Assembly (NCBI RefSeq): GCF_028389875.1
Contig: NC_084663.1
Coordinates: 1,172,466-1,236,465 of the forward strand
Source: Rhea pennata
Taxonomy: Eukaryota; Chordata; Aves; Rheiformes; Rheidae
Reading direction: 5' to 3'
Length of the DNA stretch: 64,000 nt
Shown one piece after another: positions 16,464 to 64,000 of this stretch. Position 1 is the stretch's first letter. The number at the start of each line of letters is the position of its first letter. A program made the position numbers and the translations under genes. The notes under the pieces are model-generated. The model saw only the letters and a program-made list of their open reading frames with translations. It did no database searches and had not been told where the DNA came from.

Positions 16464-19400
16464 GTGGAGGTGGAAGTGGAGAGCATGGACAAAGCCGGCA
16501 ACTTCATCGGCTGGCTGCACATCGACGGCGTCAACCTCTCGGTGGCCCTGGTGGAGCACGCCCTCTCCAAGGTGCACTTCACCGCCGAGCGCAGCCCCTA
16601 CTACAAGTCGCTGCTCGCCGCCGAGGAGGCCGCCAAGCAGAAGAAGGAGAAGGTGAGAGCGGGGGCCGGCGCCGCGACGTGTCCCCGCGCGCCGGCCGGG
16701 CACCCGGCTCCGCTGCCTGGGCGCCCGGCCGCGCCGCGAGCCCGCCTCTCCCCCGCCCCGCAGGTCTGGTCCCACTACGAGGAGGCGCCGGTGGAAGAGG
16801 TGGTGCCGGTGCTGGAGGAGAAGGAGCGCACGGCCAACTACAAGCCCGTCTTTGTCACGGAGATCACGGATGACCTGCACTTCTACGTGCAGGACGTGGA
16901 GACGGGTAAGGGGCCAGGTCGGGCGCACGGCGCTGCACAGCACTGCATGGTGCTGCACAGTGCTGCACGGTGCTACGTGGTGCTGCACAGCACTGCACGG
17001 CACTGCACAGTGCTGCACGGTGCTACACGGTGCTGCATGGCACTGCACAGCACTGCATGGCACTGCACAGTGCTGCATGGTGCTACAGTGCTGCACGGCG
17101 CGGCATGGCACTGCACAGTGCTGCACGGTGCTACACGGTGCTGCATGGCGCTGCACAGCACTGCACGGCACTGCACAGTGCTGCATGGTGCTACAGTGCT
17201 GCACGGCGCGGCATGGCACTGCACAGTGCTGCATGGTGCTACACGGTGCTGCATGGCGCTGCACAGCACTGCATGGTGCTGCACCGTGCTGCTCCCCAGC
17301 TCTGCCCCTCGCCTTGCAGCGCGGCTCCCTGACCGCCCCATCGCTGCAACCTGCCCAACCCTGCAGCCTCTCCCTGCCCCCACCAGCACTTTAATTAGGC
17401 TGGCTTAATTAAAAGGCAATCTGCAGGGGGGGTGCACAGCTCCCTCCCCGCCGGGGGCTGCGAGCGCTGCCCGTTAAGGGCACGGGCTCCTCCGGGGTGG
17501 GCGAGGGGCGCGCGCCGGGTCCCGGGTGCCAGGCACGGGGCGCTTCGCAGGTTCCCAGCTGGAGAAGCTGATGGAGAACATGCGGGGCGAGATCGCGGCG
17601 CACCCGCCCGTGGAGGGCTCCTACGTGCCGCGCCGCGGCGACTACTGCATCGCCAAGTTCGTGGACGGAGAATGGTGAGCCGGGCCCCGGGGGCGGGCGG
17701 GAGCCGCGGCTCCGGCTCTGCCGGCGGCGCCGCTCGGGGCATCGCTGCGATCGCTGCCGCGCGCCGCTTGCAGGTACCGGGCGCGGGTGGAGAAGGTGGA
17801 GTCGTCGGCCAAAGTGCACGTCTTCTACATCGACTACGGCAACGTGAGTGCGGGGCGCCGGGGAGCGCAGCGGCTGGGGGGGGGCCGGGTCGGCACCGCC
17901 GGCACCGTGGCACCGCCGGCACCGCGACCCCGCACCGGGTCCCGCGGTGCCACCGCAGCCCCTCCGCGCCCCCGCAGAAGGAGACGCTGCCGTCCGCGCG
18001 CCTCGGCGCCCTGCCGCCCGCCTTCAGCACCCGCGTCCTGCCCGCCCAGGCCACCGAGTACAAGTTCGCCTTCATCCAGGTGCCCCAGGACGTAAGTGCG
18101 GGGCAGGCACGGGGCCGGGGATGGGGATCAGGACGGGGATGGGGACGGGGATGGGGATCGGGGTCGGGACGGGGACGGGGACGGGCACGGGGTCGGGGAT
18201 GGGGATCAGGACGGGGACGGGGATGGGGACGGGGACGGGGATGGGGATCAGGACGGGGACGGGGATCGGGATCGGGATCGGGATCGGGATGAGGATGGGG
18301 ATCGGGACAGGGATGGGGATGGGGACGGGGACGGGGATGGCGCCGGGGATGGGGTCGGGTTTGGGATGGGGATGGGGATCGGGACGGGGATGGGGATGGG
18401 GATCAGGACAGGGATGGGGACGGGGACGGGGATGGGGACAGGGATGGGGATGGCGCCGAGGCCGGGGATGGGGATGGCGCCGGGGATGGGGTCGGGGATG
18501 GGGATGGGGATGGGGCCGGGGATGGGGATCGGGCCGGGGATGGGGATGGGGATCAGGACAGGGATGGGGACGGGGACGGGGATGGGGCCGGGGATGGGGA
18601 TGGCGCCGGGGATGGGGTCGGGGATGGGGATGGGGATCAGGACGGGGATGGGGATCAGGACGGGGATGGGGATGGGGCCAGGGATGGAGATCGGGACGGG
18701 GATGGGGACGGGGCTGGGGCTGGGGATGGGGCCGGGGATGGGGATGGGGATCGGGACGGGGATCGGGACAGGGACGGGGATGGGGACAGGGCCGGGGCCG
18801 GGGATGGGGCCGGGGATGGCGCCGGGGGGACCGTCCTCGAGCCGTGCCGTGCCCGCAGGAGGACGCGCGGGCGGACGCGGTGGACAGCGTGGTGCGCGAC
18901 ATCCAGAACACCCAGTGCCTGCTCAACGTGGAGCACGTGGGGCCCGGCTGCCCCCACGTCACCCTGCAGTTCGCCGACTCCAAGAGCGACGTGGGGCTGG
19001 GGCTGGTCAAGGAGGGGCTGGTCATGGTGGAGGTGCGCAAGGAGAAGCAGTTCCAGAAGGTGGTAGGTGCCGCCGGCCGGGACCCCGGCAGGGTCTCCTC
19101 GCCCCCCCCCCCCCCGCCCCGGGGACCCCCGGGACCCCAGAGAAGGGCCCCCCCGAGGTGCCCCGAGGGCGCTGCGGAGGGGCCGGGGCGCCTGACGGCC
19201 GCTGCCCCGCAGATCACCGAGTACCTGAACGCCCAGGAGACGGCGAAGAGCGCCAGGGTGAGTCCGGCTCGGCGGCGGCCGCCTCGGGGTGCCGGGAGGG
19301 GCGGGGGGGGAGCGCGGCCCCCCCCGCGCCCGGGGCGGTGCTGGCTGCAGCCCCATCCCCGATTAGAGACCGCGTGCACAGCCCGTGTTGCAGCCCCCCC

Positions 19401-20171
19401 ATCTCCGGGGGAGGGCGATGCTGGCTGCAGCCCCCCATCTCGGGGGTGGGGGGCCATGCTGGCTGCAGCCTCCCATCTCTGGGGGGGGGCCATGCTGGCT
19501 GCAGCCCCCCGTCTCCAGTGGCAATTCTGGCTGCAGCCCCCCATCTCTGGGGGGGGGCCATGCTGGCTGCAGTCCCCCGTCTCCAGTGGCAATGCTGGCT
19601 GCAGCCCCCCGTCTCCGGGGGGGGCCATGCTGGCTGCAGCCCCCCGTCTCCAGTGGCAATGCTGGCTGCAGCCCCCCCATCTCCGGGGAGGGGGGCCATG
19701 CTGGCTGCAGCCCCCCATCTCCGGGGGTGCGGGGGGCTGGTGCTGGCTGCGGCCCCCCATCTCTGGGGGGGGGGCCATGCTGGCTGCAGCCCCCCGTCTC
19801 CAGTGGCAATGCTGGCTGCAGCCCCCCCATCTCCGGGGAGGGGGGCCATGCTGGCTGCAGCCCCCCATCTCCAGGGGGGCGGGGGTCTGGTGCTGGCTGC
19901 GGCCCCCCATCTCTGGGGGGGGCAATGCTGGCTGCAGCCCCCTGTCTCCAGTGGCGTTGCTGGCTGCAGCCCCCCGTCTCCGGGGGGGGGGGCCATGCTG
20001 GCAGCAGCCCCCCATCTCCGGGGGGCGGGGGGCTGGTGCTGGCTGCGGCCCCCGCCTCGGGGGGGTGACGCCGGCTGCGCCCCCAGCCCGTCTCCTTTCC
20101 TGCAGCTGAACCTGTGGCGCTACGGGGACTTCCGCGCCGACGACGCGGACGAGTTCGGATACAGCCGCTAA
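16464..20171 (+). CDS. SND1: SND1 (Tudor-SN/p100), last eight coding exons
   Basis: Staphylococcal-nuclease and Tudor-domain protein: RISC-associated nuclease, transcription coactivator and splicing/mRNA-stability factor (family knowledge). Exons: 16464-16652, 16764-16905, 17551-17674, 17774-17843, 17978-18091, 18859-19062, 19213-19257, 20106-20171. All borders are GT/AG and phases join without a break. They encode 317 residues plus TAA, matching roughly the last third of the ~910-residue protein, and collinear with human SND1 as I remember it. Visible: the end of SN4 ([16 protein letters not shown]), the Tudor domain ([20 protein letters not shown], then [20 protein letters not shown] with D for F-C here read DYCIAKF, then HVFYIDYGN), the split SN5 part ([20 protein letters not shown]) and the conserved end DADEFGYSR. 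Upstream exons lie left of the window, beyond the nested LRRC4. Introns are 100-850 bp and three of them carry tandem arrays. Confidence 0.97.
16922..17292. repeat. Tandem repeat in SND1 intron (CTGCACRGTG type)
   Basis: Decamer-like array of TGCTGCACAGTGCTGCATGG and CTACACGGTG variants filling much of the intron between the exons at 16764 and 17551. Confidence 0.9.
17380..17425. promoter_or_regulatory. Small AT-rich patch with TTAATTA motifs in SND1 intron
   Basis: ACTTTAATTAGGC and GGCTTAATTAAAAGGC sit 10 bp apart in otherwise GC-rich intron. These are homeodomain-type sites; function unknown. Confidence 0.3.
18096..18835 (+). repeat. GGGGAY hexamer array in SND1 intron
   Basis: Over 100 hexamers GGGATG, GGGACG, GGGATC and GGGGCC fill the intron before the exon at 18859. 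All G-runs are on the SND1 sense strand, so the nascent RNA could form G-quadruplexes. The array begins within about 20 bp of the donor and ends about 30 bp from the acceptor. Confidence 0.95.
19385..20065. repeat. Minisatellite in last SND1 intron, ~34-38-bp unit
   Basis: About 18 copies containing CATGCTGGCTGCAGCCCCCC with alternating CATCTCCGGGGGG and GTCTCCAGTGGCA ends. It occupies nearly the whole intron between the 45-bp exon (19213-19257) and the last exon. Confidence 0.94.
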
Positions 20172-28920: not shown

Positions 28921-30518
28921 GGGGACACGACACCGGGATGGGGCTCCGGTATCCTCGAGTGCGCCCCCGCCGCGGCCCCGGGGAGGCTGCTGCAGCGCCG
29001 AGTACCCCCCCTCCCCACTCTGACCCCCCCCCCCCCCCCCACCGCGGCGGGCACGGCCGCCGGCGCCGCCCGGGCAGCACCGCGCCCCGGGGCCGCCCGA
29101 GCTGCCCGCTCCGCCCTGCCCCGGGGGCTCCTGGCTGCTGCGCCCCGCAGCGCCCGCTGCCCTCTGCACGCTGAGGCCGCCCGTGCACCCCCCGCCCCCC
29201 CCCCCCCAAAAAAAAGAAGGTTCCGTGTGCCTCCCCTCCCCAGGGCCCTCTGTACCCCCCCCCCCCGCAGGGTGCACTGTGCATGCACCCCTCCACGGCT
29301 CCATGCACCCCCTGTCCGAGAGCCCGTGCACCCCCCACCGGGCCCCATGCACCCCTCTGCAGGGCACCCGTGCGGCAGCTCCCTGTGCCGTGCTCCTGCA
29401 GCACTTGGGGTGCCCCTTCCCCGCTCCCGGTGCTGCCCCCGCCAGGCTCTGCACCTGCGCCCCGGGGCCTGGCCACCCCCCAGGGCTGAGCCCCCGCCAG
29501 ATCTGGGGCTCCCACTGGCCCTGCGCAGCCCTGCCGCCGGGCACGGCCCCAGTGCCTGGGCTTGGCCCAGGCTGCCGCAGTGGGGACACGGCCCTGGGCC
29601 CCCCCGGGAGGGAGGGGAGCCGGTGGGAGTCCGCGCTGGGCAGCCAGCCCTCTCCCGCCCGTCTCCGCGTGATGGATGCGCCACGCTCTCCAAAAACGTC
29701 CTCCGAGTCGTAGCTGCAAATCTAGAAAGGTCTCTCCCATGCACACTCACGCATCCCTTGCACACTCACCCATGCACGTTCATGGCGGCATGCGCACATG
29801 CACGCCTGTGCACGCACGTTTGCACGGTGTGCGTAGCCCCGGCTCACAGCCGGCCCCTCCAGACAGCGGGGTGCCGTGCGTGCCCAGGCCGAATCTCGGG
29901 GGCTCCCGGAGCGGCCCCGCGGCGTGCCGGGAGCCGCCAGCGACCTCGGGAAGCGCCCGTCCTCGCGCCGGCCCGGCTCCTGGGAGAGACCCCGAGGGCG
30001 CAGCCGACCCTGGCGAGCGCCGCCACGCTGCCTCCGGCTCCCTCTCCTCCCCCTGGCATGGCCCGGCCTGGCCCGAAACCTCGGGAATTTTCCAAGCTGC
30101 GGGGAAAATTGGGGACCCCCCGCCGGCTCTCGCAGCCGCCTCGCCCAGCCGCGGACCGCCGAGCCGAGCGGAGAGGGGCGGCGGGTCTGCCTCGTCCGCC
30201 GCAGCCTCTGCGGACGTCAAACCCCTCCAGGCACCGCAGCGGATGTTCCTCTTGGCTTTTTGTTCGTCTCAAGGCCCTGGCGCGTGGTTCTGGCGGCTAA
30301 GGAGCCCCGCGACCCCCGATGCACGGGGGGGTGGTGGTGCACGGCCTGCGCCGCACGCCCCGGGGCGCAGGGCATCGCGGGACCCTCTGCAGCCGGAGCC
30401 GTCCCACCCTCGCCCGGGGCTCGTCCGGCGCAGGCGCCCTCCCGGCGAGGAGAAGCCCCCGGAATCCGCCCCGGCGCGGGCGCTGCGCCCGGCCGCCTCC
30501 GTCTCGGTCTCTCTCTCG
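28921..30518. other. Putative pri-miR-129-1 intron, unique GC-rich sequence
   Basis: Contains C-runs (29023-29040, 29188-29210) and no recognised gene. A pyrimidine-rich stretch ending GTCTCAAG|GCC near 30270 could be the acceptor of the exon carrying the miR-129-1 hairpin. Confidence 0.3.
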
Positions 30519-30589
30519 GATCTTTTTGCGGTCTGGGCTTGCTGTTCCTCCAGCCAGCAGTCAGGAAGCCCTTACCCCAAAAAGTATTC
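30519..30589 (+). ncRNA. MIR129-1: microRNA miR-129-1 precursor hairpin
   Basis: The 5' arm at 30522-30542 begins CTTTTTGCGGTCTGGGC, identical to miR-129-5p. The 3' arm at 30566-30587 begins AAGCCCTTACCCCAAAAAG and ends GTAT, the form that separates miR-129-1 from miR-129-2 (GCAT). The arms pair around a ~23-base loop (CTGTTCCTCCAGCCAGCAGTCAGG region) that differs from mammals. miR-129 is enriched in brain. Its place between SND1/LRRC4 and LEP on the plus strand is the same as in human. A splice-donor-like CCAAG|GTGAGT lies 47 bases after the 3' arm (GT at 30636). Confidence 0.97.
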
Positions 30590-31144
30590 GCGAGGGATGT
30601 AGTCGGCGGGGAACCGTGGGGGACCCGCAGCCAAGGTGAGTCTGGGGGGCTGCAGGGAGCTGGGGGCGCACGGGGGGCAGAGGTGGCGGTGCTGGGGGGC
30701 TGCAGAGGGGCGACGCACAAACGCCCCTTCCCCGAGGCCGCACTGTGCACGAGGGGCTGACGGGCCCCCCAGTTCCATCCCCATCTGTACCCGGGGACAG
30801 GGGGAATAAAGCAGTGGGGCTGGAGGGGCGCCCGGCCCTCCCCACGCTGTGCCGAGCCCCAGCTCAGGGACCCCGCGTTCACGTGGCGGGGACACGGCCC
30901 CGAGGTGGGCAGCGGGCGCTTGGGGCTGCAGCACCCACGGTGGGGCCCGCTCCCCTGGCTTGGCCCACGGGTACATGTGGAGCTGCTCCGGCACCAGCTG
31001 GAGCCTGGTCCCGGCTGGAGGCGTTTCTGGGTCCAGGCACACACACAGGGACCAGCCCAAGCCCCAGACCCTGCCAGGGGACACTTTCTGCTCCCTGCTC
31101 ATCCTGATGGGATGTAGGACCTATCCCAGGCTCAGCTGCATCCC

Positions 31145-32640
31145 TGCTCCCACCAGTGAAAGGCTGGATCCCGGGCTGCACCCCCGACCCTCGCAATGCA
31201 CAGCCAGGCCCTGGGCTGCTGCTCTGCTGCGTGGGGTGCACGATCCCGGGCTGCACCCCTGATCCCCGTGGTGCACAGCCAGGCCCTGGGCTGCTGCTCT
31301 GCTGCGTGGGGTGCACGATCCCGGGCTGCACCCCTGATCCCCGTGGTGCACAGCCAGGCCCTGGGCTGCTGCTCTGCTGCGTGGGGTGCACGATCCCGGG
31401 CTGCACCCCTGATCCCCGTGGTGCACAGCCAGGCCCTGGGCTGCTGCTCTGCTGCGTGGGGTGCACGATCCCGGGCTGCACCCCTGATCCCCGTGGTGCA
31501 CAGCCAGGCCCTGGGCTGCTGTTCTGCTGTGTGGGGTGCACGATCCCGGGCTGCATCCCTGATCCTCGTGGTGCACAGCCAGGCCCTGGGCTGCTGTTCT
31601 GCTGTGTGGGGTGCACGATCCCGGGCTGCACCCCTGATCCCCGTGGTGCACAGCCAGGCCCTGGGCTGCTGCTCTGCTGCGTGGGGTGCACGATCCCGGG
31701 CTGCACCCCTGATCCTCGTGGTGCACAGCCAGGCCCTGGGCTGCTGCTCTGCTGCGTGGGGTGCACGATCCCGGGCTGCACCCCTGATCCTCGTGGTGCA
31801 CAGCCAGGCCCTGGGCTGCTGTTCTGCTGTGTGGGGTGCACGATCCCGGGCTGCACCCCTGATCCTCGTGGTGCACAGCCAGGCCCTGGGCTGCTGCTCT
31901 GCTGCGTGGGGTGCACGATCCCGGGCTGCACCCCTGATCCTCGTGATGCGCAGCCAGGCCCTGGGCTGCTGCTCTGCTGCGTGGGGTGCACGATCCCGGG
32001 CTGCAACCTCGATCCTCGTGATGCGCAGCCAGGCCCTGGGCTGCTGCTCTGCTGCGTGGGGTGCACGATCCCGGGCTGCACCCCTGATCCTCGTGGTGCA
32101 CAGCCAGGCCCTGGGCTGCTGCTCTGCTGCGTGGGGTGCACGATCCCGGGCTGCACCCCTGATCCTCGTGGTGCACAGCCAGGCCCTGGGCTGCTGCTCT
32201 GCTGCGTGGGGTGCACGATCCCGGGCTGCACCCCTGATCCCCGTGGTGCACAGCCAGGCCCTGGGCTGCTGTTCTGCTGTGTGGGGTGCACGATCCCGGG
32301 CTGCAACCTCGATCCTCGTGATGCACAGCCAGGCCCTGGGCTGCTGCTCTGCTGCATGGGGTGCACGATCCTGGGCTGCACCCCTGATCCTCGTGGTGCA
32401 CAGCCAGGCCCTGGGCTGCTGCTCTGCTGCGTGGGGTGCACGATCCCGGGCTGCACCCCTGATCCTCGTGATGCACAGCCAGGCCCTGGGCTGCTGCTCT
32501 GCTGCGTGGGGTGCACGATCCCGGGCTGCACCCCTGATCCTCGTGACGCACAGCCAGGCCCTGGGCTGCACCTCTGCTCTGCGGGGTGCACGATCCTGGG
32601 CTGCACCCCGATCCCTGCAATGCCCCCAGGCCCTGGGCTG
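31145..32640. repeat. Minisatellite, 75-bp unit, ~20 copies
   Basis: Highly regular 75-bp units with GCACAGCCAGGCCCTGGGCT, GCTCTGCTGCGTGGGGTGCA and CGATCCCGGGCTGCACCCCT. Adjacent copies differ at a few sites (CCCCGT/CCTCGT, CTGCTCT/CTGTTCT). The unit is 25 codons and lacks stops in several frames, giving open frames of 540-680 codons on both strands; these are artefacts. Confidence 0.97.
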
Positions 32641-33630
32641 CAGCCCTGCTTCCCAGGATGTAGAGCCCTGGGTGCACCCTGCCGCCCACAGTACACAGCG
32701 TGGGGCTGCACCCCTGCTCCCCCGGGTGCATGGGCCCTGCCTGCACCTCTTCCCCTCCTGGGGCGCACGGCCAAGCGCCAGGCTGCTGCCTCCGGTGCGC
32801 AGCCAAGTCTCTTCCCCCTGGTGAGCTGCAGGCCCAGCGTGGCCATCTCCTGCGCTCTGCACGGGTGCCAGGCTCAGCACTCTGAGCGCAGGGCTGGGCG
32901 AGTGAAATCCCTGCCCAGAAACCTTCCTGCCGTGGGGATGGCCACGCCGGGCCTACAGTGGGGTGCCGGGGTGCGGGGAGCACCCACCTGCTTCTCTACC
33001 TGCCGCATGCACGGTCCCCACCGCAGCGCAGCGGCTGGAGCAGCCCGTGCCCCCCACGCCCAGCATGGCACCGGCCTCGCTCTTGGTGGCTGCACCCACC
33101 GCGAGCCGGGGCACGGGCTCGGGCGCCCGGGACAGCCGGCAGCACCTCTCCCAGCCCGGTCAGTGTTGCTCCTGCTCGGGAATTTCTACTGACTGCAGGA
33201 GTCCAGCACCCGAGGAGCCAGATCCGCGTCGCCTCGACCTGCCCGGGAACGGCCTGGACTCCCACCGCAGCTGGAGACTCGGTGCCCCCAGCAAAGCACC
33301 ATCCCGGCAGCCTGGCGCTCTGCAGTGAACCGCGTCAGGCCTCCAGCTTGGGAAAACGCTACTTGGGACTGCAAAACCCAGTGGTGGCTCCGAGGGGTCC
33401 CCCGCGTTTCTGCCTGAGCGGGGCGGGAGCCGGCAGGGCTCGCCGTGTGCAGCGGCAGAGCCCTGCTCGCGTTGCTCGGGGGCGCGCGCAGCCCCCGGGC
33501 CCTTGCGCTTGTTCCCCAGCGCTGCCCCCCCCGCTCCCCAGCCGTGACACCGTGCTGGGCGGCCTCGTGGGCACTGCCTGCTCGGCCACGGGCCAGCCCG
33601 AGCACGTCATCCACCCCCGTCTTCCCGGGC
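32641..33630. other. Unique intergenic sequence, no gene seen
   Basis: GC-rich single-copy sequence after a degenerate tail of the 75-bp array. No domains in any frame. Confidence 0.35.
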
Positions 33631-40055: not shown

Positions 40056-41785
40056 TGTGTGTCCCGGGATCCCCCCGGGATCTCTGCAACCCGGGATCCC
40101 CCCGAGCTCCCTGTATCCTGAGATCCCCCTGTATCCCGTGTGTCCTGGGATCCCTCCATGTTCTATGTGTCCTGGAATCCCCTCGTGTTCCCTGTGTCCA
40201 GGGATCCCCCCGAGCTCCCTGTGTCCCGAGATCCCCCCGTGTCCCGTGTGTCCCGGGATCCCCTCGTGTTCCCTGTGTCCCAGGATCCCCCCGAACTCCC
40301 TGTGTCCCGAGATCCCCCCGTGTCCCGTGTGTCCCGGGATCCCCCCGTGTTCTCTGTGTCCCGGAATCCCCTCGTGCTCCCTGTGTCCGGGGATCCCCCA
40401 GAGCTCCCTGTGTCCCGAGCCCCGTGTATCCCGGGATCTCCCCTGAGCCCCATATATCCCACGATCCCTCCAGAGTCCCTGAGTCCCGAGATCCTTCCCG
40501 AGCTCCCTGTGTCCCGAGATCCCCCCGTGCCCCGTGTGTCCTGCGATCCCCCCGGGATTCCCGTGTCCCAGGATCCCCCCGTGCTCCCTGAGTCCCTGGA
40601 TCCCCCCGTGTCCGGTGTGTCCTGGGATCCCCCCGTGTTCCTTGTGTCCCGGGATCCCCCAGAACTCCCTGTGTCCCGAATCGCCCCCCTCCCCGCGTAT
40701 CCAGGCATCCCCCCTGAGCCCCGTGTATCCCACGACCCATCCGGAGTCCCTGAGTCCCGAGATCCTCCCGTGTTCCCTGTGTCTCGAAGTCCCCCCTGTG
40801 TCCCGGATTCCCCCCGTGTCCCGTGTATCCGGGGATCCTTCTGTGCCCCGTGTGTCCTGGGATTCCCCCCGGGATCCCTGTGTGTCCCAGGATCCCCCCG
40901 TGTCCCATGTATCCCGGGATCTCCTCGTCCCCGTGTGTCCCAGGATCCCCCCGTGTTCCACGTGTCCCGGGATCCCCCCCGAGCCCCAAATATCCCACAA
41001 TCCCTCCGGATTCCCTGAGTCCCGAGATCCTCCCCATGTTCCCTGTGTCTCGAAGTCCCCCCCGTGTCCCGGAATCCCCCCGTGTCCCGTGTATCCCGGA
41101 ATCCTTTCGTGTCCCGTGTGTCCCATGTATCCCGGGATCCCCCCCTCCCCGTGTGCCCAGAGATCCTCCCCGTGCTGCCTGTGTCCCGAAATCCCCCCGT
41201 GTCCCGTGTATCCCGGGATCCTTTCGTGTCCCGTGTGTCCCTGTATCTCGGGATGCCCCCGTGCACCCTGTGTCCCGGGATTCCCCCGTGTCCCATGTAT
41301 CCCGGGATCCCCCCCGAGCCCCGTGTGTCCCAGGACCCCCCCGTGCTCCATGTGTCCCAAAATCCCCCCGTGCTCCCTATATCCCTGTATCTCGGAATGC
41401 CCCCGTGCTCCCTGTGTCCCGAGATTCCCCCGTATCCCATGTATCCCGGGATCCCCCGTGTCCCGAGATCCCCTCGTGCTCCCTGTATCCCACGATCCCG
41501 GGATGACCCCGTGCTCCCTGTGTCCCGAGAATCCCCCGTATCCCATGTATCCCGGGATCCCCCCGTGTCCCGTGTGTCCCGAGATCCCCTCGTGCTCCCT
41601 GTGTCCCACGATCCCGGGATCCCCCCGAGCCCCGTGTGTCCCAGGATCCCCCCGTGTCCCATGTATCCCGGGATCCCCCCCGAGCCCTGTGCTTCCCGGG
41701 ATGTCTCCGTGCTCCCTGTGTCCTAGGATCCCCCCGCATCCCATGTATCCCGGGATCCCCCCGTGCTCCCTTTATCCCCGGACCC
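40056..41785. repeat. Large minisatellite directly upstream of LEP, 27-bp unit
   Basis: About 60 copies of a 27-bp unit around TGTGTCCCGGGATCCCCCCG and TGTCCCGAGATCCCC, with inserted variants (CCGTGTATCCC, CACGATCCC). GGATCC recurs almost every unit. The array ends about 180 bases upstream of the LEP TATA box, so the promoter is squeezed between it and the CpG-rich first exon. Confidence 0.96.
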
Positions 41786-41799
41786 CCCGCGCCCGTCGG

Positions 41800-42000
41800 G
41801 CCCGGGCAGGCCCGGTGCAGCGGCCCGGTCTGCGCTCCTGGCCGCCCCGTCGGAGCGGGCCGGGGCCGGGGCCGGGACCGGGGCCGGGGCCGGGGCCGGG
41901 GCCGGGGCGGGCAGCGGCGGGCGGGGGCGGGCAGCGCCCGTTGTGCAAGGGCCCCGCAGCGCTATATAGGAGGGGCCGCGGGACATGGAGCCACCGGCCG
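41800..42000 (+). promoter_or_regulatory. LEP: LEP core promoter: GC boxes, C/EBP site and TATA box
   Basis: A GGCCGG/GGGGCC-rich stretch (41850-41930) precedes GTTGTGCAAG (41940-41949), a C/EBP-type site, and GCTATATAGGAGGGG (TATA at 41963-41968). Mammalian LEP promoters have the same order: GC boxes, a C/EBP site and a TATA box just before the start. Expected transcription start is about 41990-41995. Confidence 0.8.
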
Positions 42001-42032
42001 CGACGGGACGGGAGCGGACGGGGCGGCCCCAG
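41992..42032 (+). other. LEP: LEP noncoding exon 1
   Basis: From the start expected ~28 bases after the TATA box to the donor GGCCCCAG|GTAAGC (GT at 42033). A short untranslated first exon is typical of leptin genes. Start is estimated, donor is clear. An ATG at 41984 lies at or before the expected start. Confidence 0.65.
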
Positions 42033-42730
42033 GTAAGCCGGGGCGGCAGCGGGGAGGAGGGCCGGGATGCCGGCGGAGCCCCGCGGAGGGGGGTCCGGGC
42101 CCCCTCCCGCTCCCGGGGCCGGGATCGCTGGGAAACTCGCGCCTCTGCCCCCCCGCTGCCCCGGCCCCCAGGCCCCGCGAGGGGACGGGCGACCGGGGAC
42201 ACCCGGCGCCCTGGGGTCCCTCCACCGCCGCGGCGAGGGCGGCCGCGTTGTCACCTGCCGCCGCCGAGCGGGGCCGGAGGCCGGTGCGGGGCCCAGCGCC
42301 AGCCCGCGCGGTCACGGCTGGGCACAGCCCGGGCCCTGGGGACCTTGGGCCGTGGGGCAGCGCTTGCGAAAGGGCAGCTCCGGGAAGGCTCCCGGCGTGG
42401 CACGGCCGCCACGGCACGTGCTGGCGGCCGGGGAGGCGACCGGGGACGGCCGCACGCCGGTGACACCGCCGACACCCCGTGGCCCTGGGCACCTCACTGC
42501 ACCCACCTCCTCCCGCCGCACCGCGGAGGGGGGCAAGGTGCAGTGACCCCCGCTTTAGCAAGGTGACACCCTGCCCGGGCAGCTGGGTTAGCTGCGCCCC
42601 ACATCCCCTGGGCCAGGCGGGACGGGGGCCATGCCTGGCCCCAGGGAGGTGGGTTTCGGCTCTGGGTGGGTGCCGAGCCGGGTGGGTGCCCGAGCGTGTT
42701 GGCACGTGTCGCCCGGCAGAGCCCGGCAGG

Positions 42731-44211
42731 ATGCGGTGGCCCGGCGTGTCGCTCTGCGGGCTGCTCTGGATGTGGCTGCCGCTGTCCTGCGGCCGCCCCG
42801 TGAAGATCGACAAGCTCAAGGCAGACACCAAGAACCTGGCCCGGACCCTCATCGCCCGCATCCAGGAGCTGCAGGCAAGGGCTGCGGGAAGGGGCCCCGG
42901 CCGGGGAGGGCAGCAGGCTGCAGTAGGGACCCCGGGTGTCACCCCCGTCCCAAAGTCCCTGTCGTGCAACCCCTCACTCCCGGGGTGCCCTATGGGGTGG
43001 TGGTGGACAAACAGGGATGGGGACGGCTCGGGGGAGCCTGGTGGTGCCCTGGCCTCGGAGGGGGTCTGGCTGCTTGCTCTGGAGCCAAGGTGCCGAAGTG
43101 CTCCGGAGGGGTCCCAGCTCCAGAAGGGACAGACATCCTGGGCTGAGGTGTGATGAGGTGGCCCTGAACCCCAAAGGGGTCTCAGGGAGGGGCAGCATCC
43201 CTGCACTGGCGTGTGATGGGGTGGCCCTTTGCTCCAGGGGTCCCCAAGGAGTGAAACCGATGAGCTCCGGAGAGGTCCACATGGAGGAATGTGCACCTGG
43301 GGTTAGAGATGGGGTGTGCTGGGTTGTCCCTGCCCCCCAGAAGGGTCTCCAGGGAGGGAAACCCCAGGCTGGTTTGTGACAGCAAGGCCCTGCACCTTAC
43401 AGGGGTCCCAGGGAGGCACACTCACTGGGGTGCGCCAGGGTGTCCCTGAGCCCCAGGGAGGTCCCCATGGAGGGACATGCACGCGGGGCTGGGGTTGGGG
43501 TGTGCCAGGGTGTCCCTGAGCCCCAGGGAGGTCCCCATGGAGGGACATGCACGCGGGGCTGGGGTTGGGGTGTGCTGGGGTGGTCCTGCACCCTGGGATG
43601 TCCCCATGGAGGGACATGCACCTGGGGCTGGGGTTGGGGTGTGCTGGGGTGGCCCTGCACCCTGGGATGTCCCCATGGAGGGACATGCACCTGGGGCTGG
43701 GGTTGGGGTGTGCTGGGGTGGCCCTGCACCTCGGAGAGGTCCCCATGGAGGGACGCCCACCAGGGCCTGGGGTCCGCCGAGCTGGCCCCGCGCCCGGGGC
43801 AGGGAGCGGGCGCCGTGCCCTGACGGCAGCCCGTGGGTGCAGCTCTTCCCCCTGAACCTGAAGATCAGCGGGCTGGAGTTCATCCCCGGGGAGCGGGCGC
43901 CCGAGGGCCTGGCCGCCGTGGACGAGCGGCTGCAGGGCTTCCAGCGGGTGCTGGCGGGGCTGCCGGCGGGCAGCCTGCCGCTGGCGCAGATCGCCAACGA
44001 CATGGAGAACCTGCGGAGCCTCCTGGCCGCCCTGGGCGCCCACCTGGGCTGCGCCCTGCCCCGCGCCGCCGGCCCCGCCGCCGCCGGCCCCGCCAGCCTC
44101 GCCGACGTGCTCGCCGTGTCGCCCTACACCGCCGCCGGGCTGGCCCTGGCGCGCCTCCGCGCCTGCCTCGACGGCATCGCCCGCCACCTCGACGGCCTCC
44201 AGAGCTGCTAG
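42731..44211 (+). CDS. LEP: Leptin, two coding exons, intact
   Basis: Secreted long-chain four-helix cytokine that signals through the leptin receptor (family knowledge). CDS joins 42731-42874 and 43843-44211: 170 codons plus TAG. Exon 2 begins after GCCCGGCAG at 42719 or 42729. The first coding part is exactly 48 codons, as in human LEP. Signal peptide is about residues 1-21 (MRWPGVSLCGLLWMWLPLSC); helix A follows (KADTKNLARTLIARIQEL). The CD-type loop motif GLEFIPG (residues 58-64) equals mammalian GLDFIPG, and IANDMENLRSLL (98-109) matches mammalian ISNDLENLRDLL. Cysteines at 118 and 170 sit where the mammalian disulfide is, and a third at 156 is extra. Residues 119-133 are an Ala/Pro/Gly stretch. 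The intron donor is GC, not GT. GC is extreme. Neighbours miR-129-1 and RBM28 confirm identity. Confidence 0.95.
43430..43765. repeat. Minisatellite in LEP intron 2, 70-bp unit
   Basis: About five copies of a 70-bp unit with GTCCCCATGGAGGGACATGC, GGGGCTGGGGTTGGGGTGTG and CCCTGCACC/CCCTGAGCC. It ends about 80 bases before the exon 3 acceptor. Confidence 0.95.
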
Positions 44212-44254
44212 CGCCGGCGGCCCTCGGCCCGGCCCGAGAACAAACTCCAGGCTC

Positions 44255-44411
44255 TTTTTTACCGTCGTTATTGCTATTGTTATTATTGCTATTGTTATTG
44301 CTATTATTATTATTGCTATTTTATTGCTATTGTTATTATTGCTATTGTTATTATTGTTGTTGTTATTATTCAACCCTCGTATTTATTTCTCCCACGTTAA
44401 TTTAAAATAAA
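44255..44411 (+). terminator. LEP: LEP 3' UTR with ATT-rich microsatellite and poly(A) signal
   Basis: A TATTGCTATTGTTATT-type microsatellite (44268-44372) is followed by TCGTATTTATTTCTCC, an AU-rich-element-like word, and AATAAA at 44406-44411. The 3' UTR would be about 215 bases, far shorter than the multi-kilobase mammalian one. Confidence 0.75.
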
Positions 44412-47126: not shown

Positions 47127-47132
47127 TTTATT
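47127..47132 (-). terminator. RBM28: RBM28 poly(A) signal
   Basis: TTTATT on the plus strand (AATAAA on minus) lies in an AT-rich stretch 750 bases beyond the RBM28 stop codon, making a ~770-base 3' UTR. Confidence 0.7.
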
Positions 47133-47883: not shown

Positions 47884-50800
47884 TCAGCTCTCAAACCACT
47901 TGCTCCTCTTGGCTGTGGGGGCACTGTCGGAGCTGCCCAGGATCTTCCTCTTGTACTGCTCCACGAGCTGGCTGAAACGGGCCTCGGCCTTGCTGCCCGC
48001 TGGGCGCTTTGGGGCGGCCTGGGGGCGAGACACGGGGACGAGGGCAGCGCGCGGGGCCCTCCGTCACACTCCTGCTGCTGCCCGCAGGATCGAGGGGGGC
48101 AGAGCCCCAGAGCACCACTGGGGTTGGGCAGAGGGTGCAAGAGGGAAAAGGGGGCTCTGGAGCCGCAGTGACGTGGGTCAAAGCAGGTACAGAGGTAGAG
48201 CACGCCGGGCCTCGCAGATTTGCCCCACAGCTCTGCTCTGCCTGGACCAGAGCTGGGACAGAGGATCTCCGTAGGGATTCAGGATCCAAGAAAGGGAACT
48301 ACCACATGCTGGGTCCGCCCAGGCCGAGGGAATGAGGGAACCCACGACCCCCGCTGCACCCCACAGCTGGGGGACTTGTCCGCGAGCAGCTGGGGCTGGG
48401 AGCACGTGAGCCCCCTGCTCCGTCCCTACCTGCGTGGGGGCCACGTTGCGCTTCTCCTTCCGCCGCTGTGCTTTGCCCTTGGGCTGCTTGGAGGGAACTG
48501 GCTTCACCTTCCCCTTGTCACGCTTCCTGTGCAGACGAGAAAGGACAAGCGTGGGTCCTCTGCCACGGCGTGCTGAGACACCCACGGGTGCCGCACAGTG
48601 CTGTGGGAACAGTCTTCCAGCAGCCACAGCGGATGGTGCAGCCCAGCCACAGCCGCGCTGCCGAGGACCCCCCGGGACAGCCCTCGGGAAGCAAGGGAGA
48701 AGCCACCCCCGCGATGCAGAGTGCGAAATGGAGGCATCACACCTACCTGATCTTGGGCCCGCGGTGTGATGGCATCACCAGCACCTTCCTCCGCTTGGTG
48801 CCATCAGGCAGCTCCATCCGCTCTACCTGTGCCTCCGTGCGGAAGCCAGCCCAGGGCACCGTGGGGAGGCCTCCCGGGGGGGCCGGGGCAGCCTCCTGTC
48901 CCCCAGGCTTCTCCTGCCCCTTTTGGCCCTTAGGTCCTGGCTCTGCTTGCTTCCCAGGACCTTGGGAGCCCTTGGGCCCCTTCGAGCTGTTTTTCTTCTT
49001 CCCCTGGTACTTCTTCTGTGGTCCTTCCGGCTCAGACGTCCCAGCAGCAGCTGGTCCCTTCTCCACTAGCTTCGGTTTCAGCTTGAGCTGTGCCAAACAC
49101 TGAGTCAGTGACAGGAGCCCTTGGCACAACACGGTCTGGCTGAGGGCAGCGGGTTGGCCCTACAGAGAGGGGACCCTCCAAACTGAGGCAAGCAGGGGGC
49201 AGAGAACCACTCCCCCGGGCCAGCATAGGACAGCGCAGCAGTAGCCCCTGCCCTGCTGCTGGTGGCCACACAAGGGCCTCTAGGCTCTGAGTACGCCTGC
49301 AACACGGTGGTCACCAGGGCCAGGGAGATCTCTGATGGTGCTGGACACCAGCACCAGACACGTGCAGGGCCACAGCAGCCAGACAGGGGCAACAGGAGCC
49401 AGGCCGAAGGGGGCTGAGGCCAGGCACGCACAGGGCGAGGGGACACGCCACGCACGGCCGTGCTCGGCAGCGTCTCCTACCAGGCTGCGCTGAGCTCGCT
49501 GCTCCTTCATCTTCAGCTTCCGGCGGTCCTCCAGCGAGAACTCCACGATGGGTCTCTGGGGGCAGAGCGCAGAGCAGGAGGGTGCGGGCAGGTCAGGGGA
49601 AAACTGAGGTAAGAGACCTGCACAGAGCTCCTAGGGTCCAGCCCCCCAGCATCAGGAGCATCTCTGGCTCTAATCTCCCCCCGTGACCCACAGCGCAGGG
49701 GGGTGATGAGGGGAGACCGCGTGCTCTCTGCAAAGTGGGAAGATAATGGGGGAGACCCCATGGAGCTGTGCAGAGCAAGGGGGTGATGGACAGGGGAGAC
49801 CCTGTGGTGTGGGACAGTGATTGCGGAGACCCCCAGCACCCTACAGGGTAGGGGAAGGTGACAGGGAGACCCCAGAGCGCAGGATGACAGGGGGACCCCA
49901 TGCTGCCCGACAGGGTGCTTTAGGAGGCAAAAGGGGTTGTGAGAATGATACCCAAGTGATTTTTCTAAGCTCTAGATCAGATCCTCGGCTGGGAACCACT
50001 CAGGAGAAGGAATGCATTAATTCACCTGGCACTGGTGACTTCCATTTTATGGTCTTTTTTGACTAAGTTTTTCTAGTCAGCATGGTGAATTGAAATGAAG
50101 TTAAACTATGACAGCAGCCCAACCACTGTGCACACAGCAGTGTTTGCTATTCCAATAAGAGTATAATTCTACTGCAAATCTTCTGTGCAGAAGGTGACAG
50201 GTACATCCTTGAGACCCGGCAGGGCAGGGCGAGGGCGCCCGCCTGCTGTAGGTGCACGTGTAACAGGAAACCCTGCAGGGTCCCACACAGTACGTCTAAG
50301 AGGGGAGACCCTGAAGGGTCCCAGCATCAAGGAGAGGGGGGAATGGTGGAGACTGCACGCTGCTCTGCCAGGCCGGGACATCACGGGGAGACTGCAGCAC
50401 CCCAGCTCCTCCAAGGAAACCCAGGCCCCTGAGATGCCTCCTCTCGCACACCCCAGGGAGGATCCCTCGGGCTGGAGGGGGCCGGAGGGATCCAGAGCCA
50501 GGCTCCAAACCTGCTGCTCCTGTGGGATGCACTCACCTTCTGGGGCCCGAAGAGCTGGGGGTTGTTGTTGGTGTGTCGCAGGGCGGCCAGGGCCTGCTCA
50601 TGCTCCGCGAACTCCACGAAGGCATAGCCCAGCGACTGCCCCTGCCCCTTCAGGTCCCGCATCACCCGGCACTGGGGACACAGCAGGGGCTGTCCAAGCT
50701 GCAACCGGGCCTCCTCCCGGCACCCCACCACTAGATCCCCACCGCCCCCACAGCCTGGGGCCCATAGTCCCACCTCACTGAGCGACACCCACCTTGCCTG

Positions 50801-53800
50801 CACCCCACTGTGCCCGCAGCAACCGCCGCCCCACAGCTCATCCCGGCAGCCTCACAGGGCTGGGACAATAAAGCCACGACGCAGCCGCGGTGGCCTGGCA
50901 GCAGCTGCCCGGAGCAGGGCTGTGCACCGACCCCTGCACAGGGCAGGGACACGTGCGGTGTGTGGGACAACACCTACCTCCTTGATGCGCACGTTCTTGC
51001 CGCCGCCGGCAGCCTTCAGCAGCAGGCGCCGGAGCTGCGCGCTGTCCACGGCCTTGGGCAGGTTGTGCACGCAGAGCCGCGTGCGGGACACAAAGATGTT
51101 CTGGTCCCTCAGCTTCTGGTACTTGAGTTCTTCAAACTGGGAGCAGGAAATTGTTACTGGGGACATCCCCCCTACCGGGGCAGGCTGTCCCTGACCTCGT
51201 CAGCCTGCGTTGCCTCCCTCTCAAGTCGGACACTGACACAGCAGCCATCACGTCTGCCTCCCTCCCCAGGACCTGCACACACTCACCCGTGCTCGCTTAG
51301 CCATATCTGCATCGCTCACTCCCTCTGCAGCCTTCGTCCCAGCTCGGATCACTGCAGGGGGACAAGATGGGGGTATCAAGGGCACCTCAACATCCCCTGG
51401 GCTGGAGATTGCTCCCAAGAGCCAACCCTGCTCCCCCAGCAGCCCTGTGGACCTGGGACGTGCTGCTGCTCTGTTGGAAAAGAGCCACAGTCACCCCGCC
51501 CTCAGCAGAGAGCTGCAACGAACCCCCTTGAGGGGGATGCAATCCGCCGAGCTCAAGGCGGGCCCTGCCCTGCTGGCTGCTGTGAGCCTGCTCTGGCCAC
51601 AGCCTGCTCACAGCACTACCTGCAAAGCCCTGGACACGAAGAGCAGGTCCCACAACATCCCTCTCGCTGAGGGACCAGCCTCTCGGCACACCCCAGTGAG
51701 GGAAACTGAGGCACAGCCTTCCCCGAAGGAGCAGGGACACTGCACCAGGGCCCGAGGCACAGACGAGGCCTCAGCTCCTGCTTTCCAAAGCCCTTTGTCC
51801 TCAGGGGACAGCAGGGAGCTCGGTGGTGGCAGGAGAAGGTACTCACAGCCTTCGCGGGCCAGGTAGAGGTTGCGGGTGCCCGTGGGCTTCTTCGCCTTCT
51901 GCCCACGGAGCTTCTGGGCCTCCTCGCGGCTCACGGCCAGGTCGATACGGAGCAGCCGCCCATCCAGGCGCAGCCCCCCATCCTGAAAGGGGGCAGGGAG
52001 GAACAAGGTCAATTAGGACTTTGCAGCCTTGGCAGGGGAGCTCTTGCTCCCCCTCTGCATGCAGCAAAGGGGGCTGAAATAACCCCAAAGAGCAGGGCTG
52101 AGCCCTTCCCCACAGCATCCCAGAGATCCCCTGGGTAAGAAACTGGGTGGCTGGTGCTCTTCTCCATGCCCCCGGTGCTACTCCTTGCCACCCCCGCTCA
52201 CCTCGCTGTCCTCTTCGGCAGCCTGGAGGCATTTCTGGGCTGCTTCCTGCGTCAGGAACTGGGCAAAGGCACAACCTGCGGACAGAGGCCCCACCACTTC
52301 GTGACCTCTTGCAGGAGCAGAGGAGCCAGAGCCCTCCTCCAGCAGGAGGGGCAAATGGCAGCCCAGGGGTCCCCCAAGGGCTTGGGGGACCCACTCACAG
52401 GGAACACGGCTCCCTCCCAGGGTGGCACGGCTGTTTGCCCCCTTGCAGGGGCCCTGGCAGCAGGACAGGAGGCCCCAGGGACTCCCCTCCTCCCCAGGCA
52501 GGGTTACCTTTGGAGTGCTCTGTGTCAGGGTGCAGGACAATGCGGACGTACTTGAGGTCTCCGAACTGCTGCAGCATCTCCCCCAGGGCTTCCTCCTCTG
52601 TATCAAAGGACAGATTCCTACCAGGGCAACCAGACACCGTCACGGCCTGCCACAGCGCACAGCTCTTCTCTCCAGCATGCCCCAGAGCCTCTCCAGGCCG
52701 TATCCCCCAGGACCATCCCCAGGCACCCTGTCAGTCTTGGGTGAGGGCTTCTGGGGAAGCACAACTGCCCTGCACGCCACAGATGGACTACCTGTGCTGG
52801 CAGAGGGTCCCAAACCACTGCAGGGAGGGCGGGCCAGGGTTTCTAGGCACCTAGGGTCATCCTGGAGACATTTCTAACACACACCCAGCAGGAGAGGATC
52901 CAGTCCCATCCACCATTGCTGGTGATGGGGGTCCTGCCCGCCCTTGCTGAGAACTCATGGATGGGGTGTTCCTGTTCTGCCCCCCAACAGGGTTTCCCTG
53001 GCAGGAGCTGAAACACGAGACCCAGCCACACACCGGCACTAACCCTCACCTTCTCCACCCATCTGGCGATACCCAGCACCCACCTAATAAAGACAGTCTT
53101 CCCTTCACCCACGTCCGAGGGAGGCTTTTGTCCCTTCCGCTTCTTCTTGGGTGCCTCTGATTCTGGACCTGGAAAGCATCCAGCACAGTTTAACGCATGT
53201 AGGGATGCTGCGTCGCCCTGCAAGGCAGCAGCTGGGCTGCAGGAGTCCCAGTACCCTGGTAAAGCTCTCCCAGTACCTAACTGGTGCAGGCTCTGCACAA
53301 GGGCACCCCAGTGCCCTGCCCACAGCAGCTCACCACCAACCCTCACTCACTTGCTCCCAGTCTCATCTACCAAGGCAGAACAGACCTTCCTCCTCCTCAT
53401 CATCATCCAAGCCCTCCTGGTCACTGTCATTCTTGCTCCCACTGGCTGCTTCATCATCATCTTCTTCCTCTTCTTCCTCATCTTCCTCCTCCTGCTCTTC
53501 CTCCTCACTGCTCTCCACAGCCACTGTCATCTTCCCAGCCCTGCAACAGCCGAGGCAGCATGTGAGTCCATTCAGCCCAGCTGGGAGCCCTAAGCCACAC
53601 AGTCCCCAATCCCATAGCAGCCCCAAAAAATCCCCAGTCCCCACATAGAGGCCAAGCAAGGGGCGATCCCAGTCCTGCCAATCCTGTGCTGGGGACATGG
53701 CGCAACCTGGAGTCCCACAGGGAGGACAGACACCCCCAGTTCTGGCAGCGTGGGGGGCAGAGGCTGTAAAGGAAACACTTTCCGGGGAGGACGGGGGCAG

Positions 53801-56800
53801 GCAGAGGCGAGCAGCGGATTCTGCCACCCCAGGCCTGTGCTGGCAAGGTCCTAAAGCAAGATGGATCCCCCCAGGATGAGCCCCAGCTCTCACTTCTCTC
53901 TGTCCCCAGCCAGCACAGCCCTCTCCCCTCACTCACCGGCCTTGCCCCTGGGAAAGGGACGGCTTGTTCTGTCCAGCTGCTTCCTCTTCCTCCTCCTCCT
54001 CCTCTTCCTCTTCTTCCTCCTCTTCACTGGCATTCTCCGGATCCTGCTCTTGGATCCCTCCAGATTTCTCCTCCTTGTTCTCTGTGGAGTGGACCAAGAC
54101 AGGAGACAAGGAAGAGAAAGAAGAGATCATTTCCAACACTGCCACCGCCCCGAGGATGGCAGCAGTCCCTGCTGCCCTGTTTCTGGGAATCCACGAGGAG
54201 GGCGGCATGGGGCACAGGGCAGGGCCCAGAACCGGACTTGGAGAACAGGCTGGGACACCTGGGTCCCAGCTGGACAGCGGCAGGCACTCACCGGAAGGCA
54301 GGGAGCCCTGCGTCGCGCGGTACTTATCCTTGGCCACAGCCCAGTCCACAGCTACCAGCCGCTCTGGGGAGGCGAAAAGGGGCATCAGAGCCCGCTGCGA
54401 GCGTCCCCGTGCCCAGGTGGCCTTCAAGGCCAGCCACAGAGAGTGCTGGGACGTGTTCAGCAGCCCAGGGCAGGCCTCGCCCGAGGAGGAGGGGGAGCAG
54501 GCAGGCCCGGACCTTTGATCTTCGTCATGTTCATCCCCTTGAGCGCCTTGGCTGCTTCCAGCATGTTCCTGAACTGCACGAAGGCGAATCCCCGCATCTT
54601 CCCATCTGCGAGAACAAGAGCTCAGAGCCCGCCAGGAGCTGCCACGAGGGCACCGCAGCCCAGGAGATCCCCGTCAGGCTTGGCGGGGCCAGGCTACCAG
54701 TGCGGAGCACCCAGGCAGAGCCCAGCCCCACCAAGCAGGCCCAGGAAGGCCCACCAGAGGCTGGCCCAGGTGGTTGGCATAAGAACAACTACTACAAGGG
54801 AAAGAACAAGGTTGTTTTGACTGAGAAAAAGGCATCAAGGAAATGCAATAAAAGACTGGAAAGCCCCAAGGGTGAGGAGGGTTGAATCCGCTGCTCCTTC
54901 TAGCGCAGGATGGAAGGGCTCCTCTGCAGGCGGGGAGCCGCTTTGGAAAAGCAGGAGAAAACATTTTTTTTCCCCAGAGCGCCCAATTCGGCTTGTGAAC
55001 TCATTCCTGCAGGACGCGTTTAACCGACCCAGCAAGTAGGGGACTAAGGCAGATAGAGAAAACACAATGCTGCTGCTGTTACGTATGGCTCAGCCGCTGA
55101 AGCGCAGTGGTCATCATCAAGCAAAACCCATCTTGTTCACCTCGTTTTTCGCACTTCTTGCCAAAGTACCTCTCGCTACCTAAGATAAGAAAGCAGGCCA
55201 AAAGGTCTGAAGAGCTTGGCCCACCTCTGAGAATGATTTCCTGCAGAGTCATGCAGCACCAAAACACCTGGTCCCACTAGAAGTGAGGGCTGGAGGCAGC
55301 GCTGGGCAGCATAGTCCGGGTGCTGGGGCCCACCTAGACATCAGCAGCAGCTCCGAGCCTGGCCCACAGGGACTGATCCTGCACATCACTCCCCTCTGCA
55401 GTCCCTGGAGAAGATATGCTCCACAGGAGCTTCATCAGGGGAATGAGGCTCAGCCTCACCTGGCTTCCTGGGGATGTTCACCTCCAGAACGGTGCCAAAA
55501 GGAGAGAACACAGACTTCAGGTCATCTTCAGAGCACTGAGGAGACACAGCAAAGAGCAGCCTGGTGAGGGAAGGGTTGGGAGGGGGAACAGGAGGCAGTC
55601 GGAAGCATCTCCCATGACATGTCCCCCAGAAGCAAGCAAGGATGTCGCTTGCGTTCCCTGCTCCTCAGCGCACGGTCACCATCCTATGAACGGGACAGAT
55701 CAGTGGTCCCAGGGCAGCCCTCAAGTGGTCACTTACAGGTCCTCAGTCACAACCCGTGCCAGGCTAGAAGACAGAAACCGCCAGCCGGGGACGCTTGGTG
55801 GGCGGGGGCCGCCCTCCCCGCCCGCTGGGGGTCACATAGTGAAAGCCAAAACGGAGGCGAGGGCGGGACACGGGGCGAGAGCTCCCCATACCTTGAAGCT
55901 GAGGTTGCGGATGATCAGCCTGGCCTTCTTGGAGGCACCTTTGGGCTTCCTCAGCTCCTGCTTCGCTGCAGGAGCGGCCTTAGGGGTACCTAGAACGGAG
56001 CGACGATAGCGACTCGGGGTCAGCGCCGCCTGGGAACGGACCGAGAGCTGCCTGCCCGTCCCACAGCACCACCTGCCCCCCCAGCTGCTCCCGGAGGGCC
56101 TCCTGAACCCTCCTTGAGGGACAGCCACCCACCAGGCCCCAAAGCCCTACACCCCTGCAGGGTCTCCAGCCGGTTCCCAGCTCACACCGCCGCCGCCGCA
56201 TCCTCCTGCTGCCGCTTCCTCTTGTTCTGCCCTTCCCTCAGCTTCTGCCTGGCCACGGTCACGCTGAGCCTGCGGCCGCCGAAGGTGGTGGCCTCCCCGA
56301 GGGCTCGCCGCGCGTCCTCGGGCAGGCAGAAGGTGACGTAGCCGAACCCGCGGCAGGTCTCGCTGCCTGGGGCCAGGGGCCGCAGTGAGGTCCTCGCGCC
56401 CCCCCCCCTCCAGCGCACCCTCTCCCAGGGGGGTGGGGGCGCAGCGTCCCACCCCCAAGGGACGCTCGGGCTCACGCTGTCCCTGGGTCCCCTCCCCTGC
56501 CCCCAACGTGGCCCAGTCCCCCCACGGCCCACCGCAAGGGTCCTCGTGTTCCCACCCCCCCCCCCCCGGCACGTTTTAGCGTCCTCCCCCAGCCTGCCCC
56601 CCAACCTCCCCCAGGCCTCCCCCATCCTGCCCCCCCGACATGGCCCAGAACGTCCCATGTTCCGGCCCCTGCCTCCTGCCCCCCACATCTGCCCCCACAT
56701 CCTGTCCCCACACACCTGTGCCCCCCCAGTCTGCTTCGCCCACGTGCCCCAAGCGCCCCAGTATAACCCAGGAACCCTCACTGCCACCTCCAGCCCCCCA

Positions 56801-62439: not shown

Positions 62440-62499
62440 CTGCGGAGGGGGAGCGGGCTCAGCGCGGCGGCGAGCGGGACGCACGGGCGGGCACCCATG

Positions 62500-63840: not shown

Positions 63841-64000
63841 CATGGCCCCTGTAAACCCCCACATGCAGCCTTGTGCACCCCACAAACCTTGGCCACCCCC
63901 ACATCCAGCCTTGTGCCCACTCCCCACACGCCTGTGCACAGCCCCCATCGCCCACAGCACCCTGGGCACCCTGCACACCCCCCCACACCCCTGGGCACAG

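Follow-up and report, generated by a model that had tools for sequence, protein, structure and literature searches.

A probably intact leptin gene with a predicted GC-AG coding intron near a telomere-repeat contig end in Rhea pennata

Bird leptin has been in print since 2014, in many species. Leptin coding sequences have a G+C content of 74 ± 2% in birds and 52 ± 3% in other vertebrates, and the chicken gene (LEP) has been mapped to the tip of 1p, together with ARF5, SND1, LRRC4, RBM28, and FLNC (PMC5550943). The protein of birds is described with two conserved cysteines, and the non-coding leptin exons of the dove have canonical splice sites (PMC4094774). Reported activities include JAK-STAT activation by an authentic bird leptin (PMC3963946) and binding of chicken LEPR by the chicken protein (PMC10700341). 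Expression in chicken is highest in brain and pituitary, extends to pancreas and duodenum, and is very low in fat (PMC10700341, PMC5550943, PMC5385356, PMC6770569), with values of at most 0.28 RPKM in quoted J-line tissues (PMC6770569). By analogy with this brain- and pituitary-high, fat-low pattern, local action would be likelier than a fat-mass signal, and published bird data favour autocrine or paracrine action over that of an adipose hormone (PMC5385356, PMC10700341).

A first-pass annotation of the DNA considered here had described avian leptin as disputed for two decades. This is accurate in that the gene escaped cloning and assembly for some 20 years, but it has been in print since 2014, and a leptin gene in the rhea is mostly expected and confirmatory. 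The window, that is, the whole stretch analysed, comprises 64 kb of Rhea pennata DNA (NC_084663.1, 1172466-1236465; contig C1 of the assembly), and the analysis covers one species and one assembly. Tests of sequence, synteny, and architecture lead us to regard the stretch, with high confidence, as an intact LEP orthologue, with a promoter, one predicted non-coding and two coding exons, a predicted GC-AG intron, and a precursor that would yield a four-helix cytokine. It is the only one found: a protein query (best eight candidates scored) and PF02024 (best two scored) gave no second leptin locus in the 1.27-Gb, 180-contig assembly. The features are collected in Table 1.

Table 1. Features of the rhea leptin locus and its neighbours, in window coordinates (a slash within a motif marks the exon border).
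Feature	Position	Strand	Basis or detail
SND1, last exons (final 21 protein letters not shown)	18065..20171	+	5 of 11 peptide patterns, in gene order, all on the plus strand
mir-129 precursor (miR-129-1 by position)	30516..30590	+	Rfam RF00486, 92.1 bits, gathering score 48.6
Minisatellite, 27/54-bp units, immediately 5' of the LEP promoter	40058..41796	+	Tandem Repeats Finder
Four uninterrupted GGGGCC units, inside the G4-type G-run stretch 41857-41931	41880..41903	+	Pattern scan
C/EBP-like site TTGTGCAA (mouse leptin TTGCGCAA)	41941..41948	+	One of two TTG[CT]GCAA in the window; aligns with the labelled mouse C/EBP site
TATA box CTATATAG	41962..41969	+	Aligns with the mouse leptin TATA box
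Predicted non-coding LEP exon 1 (about 41997-42032)	41997..42032	+	Start placed from the homologous mouse start site; donor CAG/GTAAGC at 42032/42033
LEP exon 2	42720..42874	+	Predicted acceptor ...CGGCAG/AGCC; ATG 42731; residues 1-48
LEP intron 2	42875..43842	+	968 bp; GC-AG borders CAG/GCAAGG ... GTGCAG/CTC; phase 0
69-bp x 5 tandem repeat in LEP intron 2	43426..43773	+	92% match, four G4-type motifs; Tandem Repeats Finder and pattern scan
LEP exon 3, coding part	43843..44211	+	Residues 49-170 and TAG; PF02024 1.4e-26 alone
LEP 3' UTR	44212..44411	+	TTATTG-type repeat; AATAAA at 44406-44411
RBM28, C-terminal exon to RRM-bearing exon	47884..56322	-	RRM_1 and conserved peptides

The identity of the product is carried by profile and sequence searches. 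The Pfam Leptin family (PF02024) matches the protein at 6.5e-34 and 117.2 bits (cut-off 25), over residues 26-170 and profile positions 2-145 of 145. Each coding exon matches its own part of the profile, in the proper order; exon 3 does so on its own (Table 1), while exon 2 alone stands at 0.0016, under the curated cut-off, and matches that end of the profile where it should. The PDB search gave 14 sequences up to E 10: 11 are significant, all of them leptins (1.3e-26 to 1.8e-18), and the remaining three have E-values of at least 0.39. Human leptin is identical at 54 of 143 aligned residues (38%), in support of the annotation's assignment of the 170-residue product, and Cys118 and Cys170 of the precursor align with human Cys96 and Cys146. 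The leader is hydrophobic (MRWPGVSLCGLLWMWLPLSCG), and mammalian precursors in the PDB sequence search align from residue 7. Published duck leptin primers with a stated product of 81 bp (PMC4094774) find their best placement in the window, on either strand, at 43933-44013, where 28 of 38 bases match and the product measures exactly 81 bp; the next best placement reaches 23.

When joined by script, the coding exons (42731-42874 and 43843-44211, plus strand) give a 513-nt frame of 170 residues without an internal stop, from an ATG at 42731 to a TAG ending at 44211. The annotation had claimed such a two-coding-exon gene without stop or frame break, and its coordinates agree with the spliced frame almost to the base. 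The sequence features that it listed are likewise present: the hydrophobic leader, GLEFIPG, QIANDMENLRSLL, and the C-terminal cysteine were all located in the translated precursor, and the TATA box (from 41962) and poly(A) signal in the DNA. The layout, with a predicted non-coding exon, an ATG exon whose start codon is near the acceptor, and a large last exon, is the published leptin architecture (PMC4094774), in which exon 1 and its acceptor are predictions for the rhea.

The setting was also described correctly as GC-extreme and flanked by repeats, given a coding sequence of 75.0% G+C and the tandem repeats detected at LEP. This value lies within the published range for bird leptins. G+C at third codon positions is 99.4%, as 170 of 171 codons end in G or C, the sole exception being codon 31 (GCA). 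The fractions at codon positions 1, 2, and 3 are 0.749, 0.509, and 0.994, and that of the intron is 0.693. GC-biased substitution, in a region that is subtelomeric and rich in repeats, seems the best explanation for such extreme composition. Since the GC-rich window contains 198 ORFs of at least 150 codons, an open frame by itself is weak evidence for LEP, and homology and context carry the case. A chance origin of the frame is ruled out by homology, position, and codon signature: although ORFs are abundant, two exons that are homologous and in order do not arise at random.

LEP lies about 1.2 Mb from the telomere-repeat end of a contig of 216,929,375 bases (217 Mb), which begins with CCCTAA repeats (403 counts in the first 10 kb). 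The gene order is SND1, mir-129, LEP (+), and RBM28 (-), and the annotation's placement of LEP between miR-129-1 and RBM28 holds, with mir-129 identified by Rfam and RBM28 by RRM_1 and conserved peptides. SND1 is presumed from peptide patterns rather than from a profile search. Of nine RBM28 exon ORFs, three match RRM_1 with E-values of 1.6e-4 or lower, and a fourth does so at 0.057; Pfam gave no RRM in eight other minus-strand ORFs of the 44.5-56.8 kb region. LEP and RBM28 are arranged tail-to-tail. The RBM28 stop codon is at 47884-47886 (-), and the nearest minus-strand AATAAA past it, at 47127-47132, is 2.7 kb from that of LEP; two further minus-strand AATAAA lie within the LEP 3' UTR. A motif search did not locate LRRC4 in the window, and the minus-strand ORF 18072-20015, a candidate for this gene, was rejected as it has no leucine-rich repeats. 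Another minus-strand ORF (60120-62729), a PRRT4 candidate, has no Pfam match.

Repeats occur at several other places in the window. Some 0.6 kb downstream of mir-129, a 75-bp unit is repeated 19.8 times with 95% match (31167-32650), and a C-rich 54/105-bp repeat extends over 1.3 kb near the window end (62502-63849). A 200-N assembly gap starts directly after the window, from contig position 1236466 on, adjoining the C-rich repeats at 62-64 kb. Closer to LEP, the G-run stretch listed in Table 1 is a strong G-quadruplex-type pattern a few dozen bases 5' of the TATA box.

The promoter was compared with that of mouse leptin, on which C/EBP and TATA elements have been labelled (PMC5381469); the same mouse C/EBP sequence also appears in PMC8528721. 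From the C/EBP site to ATGGAGCC, 39 of 55 alignment columns are identical, with 54 bases in both species, and the common order of elements is C/EBP, TATA, GAGGGGC, and CATGGAGCC. The best match of the mouse C/EBP-to-start stretch to either strand of the window is at 41940-41996, with a score of 33, compared with 27 for the best elsewhere. Within 300 bp, two of 5000 dinucleotide shuffles reach the score. Significance across the whole window is not claimed, as 42 of 500 shuffles equal 33, and a separate run of 200 shuffles peaked at 36. The match is therefore strong only as a local test, by virtue of its place, and such a test presupposes knowing where to look. At the C/EBP site, the rhea has TpG where the mouse has CpG. 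The C/EBP recognition sequence of human LEP contains a CpG that is reported, citing earlier work, to matter for methylation-dependent activity (PMC5289914).

After leader cleavage, a four-helix cytokine would form, in which Cys118 and Cys170 are the conserved lasso pair. There is a third mature cysteine, Cys156, close to the C-terminus, opposite human Ser132 in the alignment and probably in helix D. The odd number of mature cysteines could leave a free thiol or permit a disulphide-linked dimer, and the unpaired cysteine could hamper folding. Thr121, presumably part of site 3, is Ala in the rhea. Six of the seven contact residues named for site 2 (Asp9, Leu13, Thr16, Arg20, Gln75, Asp85, and Leu86; PMC10066393) are identical to those of human leptin, and Asp85 is replaced by Ser. 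Of the five site-3 side chains that the same paper names, two are kept (Ser117 and Tyr119), Ser120 is replaced by Thr, and Lys33 and Gln34 are changed beside an alignment gap; alanine substitution at 33-35 made human leptin a partial agonist (PMC10066393).

The assembly contains five PF06328 matches. One, on contig C8, is LEPR by sequence (8.3e-45 to leptin receptors in the PDB, 0.68 to gp130), and three adjoining exons match LEPR at 1.9e-25, 3.4e-22, and 1.1e-22. The LEPR exons examined are open, and the gene is on a contig other than that of LEP. A further exon at this locus is open for 271 codons, has no Pfam match, and contains YVPQ, which we take to be a motif of the STAT3-docking type; its place and this motif suggest that it belongs to LEPR. 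Elsewhere, on contig C61, two Ig domains of the leptin-receptor type lie about 60 kb from each other and in opposite orientation; they are perhaps IL6ST/IL31RA, a pair arranged in this way.

In LEPR, with positions numbered from our own alignments, Leu503, Leu504, Tyr470, and the aromatic cluster of Phe403, Tyr405, Tyr409, and Tyr420 are kept. Ser468 and Glu563 of the mouse are changed to Lys and Asn, respectively (locus-local positions 5180-5569 and 4068-4349, minus strand). A contact between Ser468 and leptin Asp85 is reported for the solved complex, and both partners in it are thus changed; Glu563 is the contact of leptin Thr16, and Thr441 is that of Arg20 and Gln75. Helix A has Ala for Asp8 and Asn for Thr12, and LEPR position 565 is Asp in place of Asn. 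For the falcon, a leptin-receptor co-change of three residues is described without positions (PMC3963946). The three rhea changes fit this description, if our own assignment of the positions holds.

Taken together, a C/EBP-TATA promoter that is retained without a methylatable CpG, and ligand-receptor co-change at the contacts Asp85/Ser468 and Asp8 plus Thr12/LEPR 565, would make a combined reading that we put forward tentatively and consider rather improbable. If this were general in birds, fat-specific leptin expression would have been lost for a reason other than loss of the core C/EBP-TATA elements, and birds would lack the methylation switch that is described in human LEP.

GC donors are uncommon. 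The LEP coding intron begins with GCAAGG and ends in GTGCAG, and CAG/GCAAGG otherwise fits the donor consensus. The window has three plus-strand copies of CAGGCAAG and one on the minus strand; one of these four is exactly at the phase-0 border of exon 2. Among 15 exon ends inspected in RBM28 and SND1, 11 have a clear GT donor, three are unclear (two with a possibly usable GC), and one is a duplicate. The RBM28 exon ends near 52190 and 51848 (-) show no clear GT donor in their local context, and each has a GC that may be usable. Human LEP presumably has GTAAGG at the corresponding donor, in which case one T-to-C substitution would account for the GC donor of the bird; GC-biased substitution could have driven it. 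Splicing might instead use a nearby GT, GCA/GTAGGG at 42922/42923, which is 48 nt downstream and in the same phase, with no stop before it when the intron is read by eye. Use of this site would insert 16 residues after helix A, a Gly/Arg/Ala-rich stretch, whereas the GC donor leaves an alignment gap of just three residues there. By eye, the GT site also fits the donor consensus poorly, and it is very unlikely to be the true donor.

Similarly improbable is a recently silenced pseudogene, in which mRNA production would fail through the GC donor, repeats, or promoter changes despite an open frame. The GC donor at a coding intron could be read in this way, as could the tandem repeats and G4-type motifs on the promoter side and in the intron, and the low leptin mRNA of chicken tissues (PMC6770569). 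Against silencing, the gene has no stop or frameshift and keeps a codon-structured composition (GC2 0.51 versus GC3 0.99), most site-2 contacts, the examined receptor exons, and the core promoter elements. Its GC donor otherwise fits the consensus. An even more distant reading is that the locus encodes a different class-I helical cytokine, CNTF-like or of the IL-6 family, since these and leptin have a common fold class. The synteny is that of leptin, and leptins were the only significant matches in Pfam and PDB, which leaves no better match to another cytokine family. Among Pfam matches up to E 10, where HMMER filters drop most weak ones, there was no other such family, nor was there one among the PDB sequences up to the same E-value, and the next whole-protein match in Pfam was a non-cytokine at E 0.89. 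This reading can be taken as refuted, with a residual chance that is negligible.

For the intact LEP orthologue, we infer the following course. The TATA promoter with its C/EBP-like site would start a three-exon transcript whose first exon is non-coding, from which the 968-bp GC-AG intron would be spliced out, giving the 170-residue precursor for secretion. The folded leptin would then activate LEPR-JAK2-STAT3 signalling, and would act locally, as published for other birds. The annotation's view that the gene should encode a hormone is retained in part: a secreted ligand is predicted and receptor exons are open in the assembly, but published bird data favour local action over an adipose hormone.

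The gap-free gene presents promoter, introns, repeats, and neighbours in one piece, with LEPR on another contig of the same assembly, and the complete locus makes GC-AG splicing, tissue use of the promoter, and the extra cysteine directly testable. The GC-AG intron, predicted exon 1, third cysteine, TpG C/EBP site, and two-sided Asp85/Ser468 change go beyond the earlier account. In the part of the literature covered, nothing was found on a GC-AG intron, a C/EBP site, or a third cysteine in bird leptin, which does not imply absence from print, nor was the GLEFIPG motif mentioned. The excerpts of three avian leptin papers (PMC4094774, PMC3963946, PMC5550943) likewise contain no mention of a GC donor, Cys156, or a TpG C/EBP site.

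In other respects, the rhea gene resembles the leptins described from falcon, tit, zebra finch, rock dove, quail, chicken, and duck, in which the ATG is close to the exon 2 acceptor and the last exon is large. As in the rhea, G+C contents are about 70-75%, RBM28 lies tail-to-tail, and mir-129 belongs to the synteny group (PMC4094774, PMC3963946, PMC5550943). Chicken LEP, at the tip of chromosome 1, is likewise subtelomeric (PMC5550943), and the helix-A changes appear to be common to falcon and rhea (PMC3963946). Precursor lengths are similar (166 residues in falcon, 161 in tit, and 170 in rhea). Dove leptin has two non-coding exons (PMC4094774), whereas one is predicted here.

Likenesses to the leptins of human and mouse comprise the full-length profile, the Cys96/Cys146 pair, six of seven named site-2 contacts, and, in mouse, the order and spacing of the C/EBP-TATA core promoter. 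In contrast to mammalian leptin, the rhea protein is only 38% identical to the human one, is three residues shorter after helix A, and has an extra cysteine, Ser for Asp85, and Ala for Thr121, while its gene has lost the CpG of the C/EBP site and has a coding sequence of 75% G+C.
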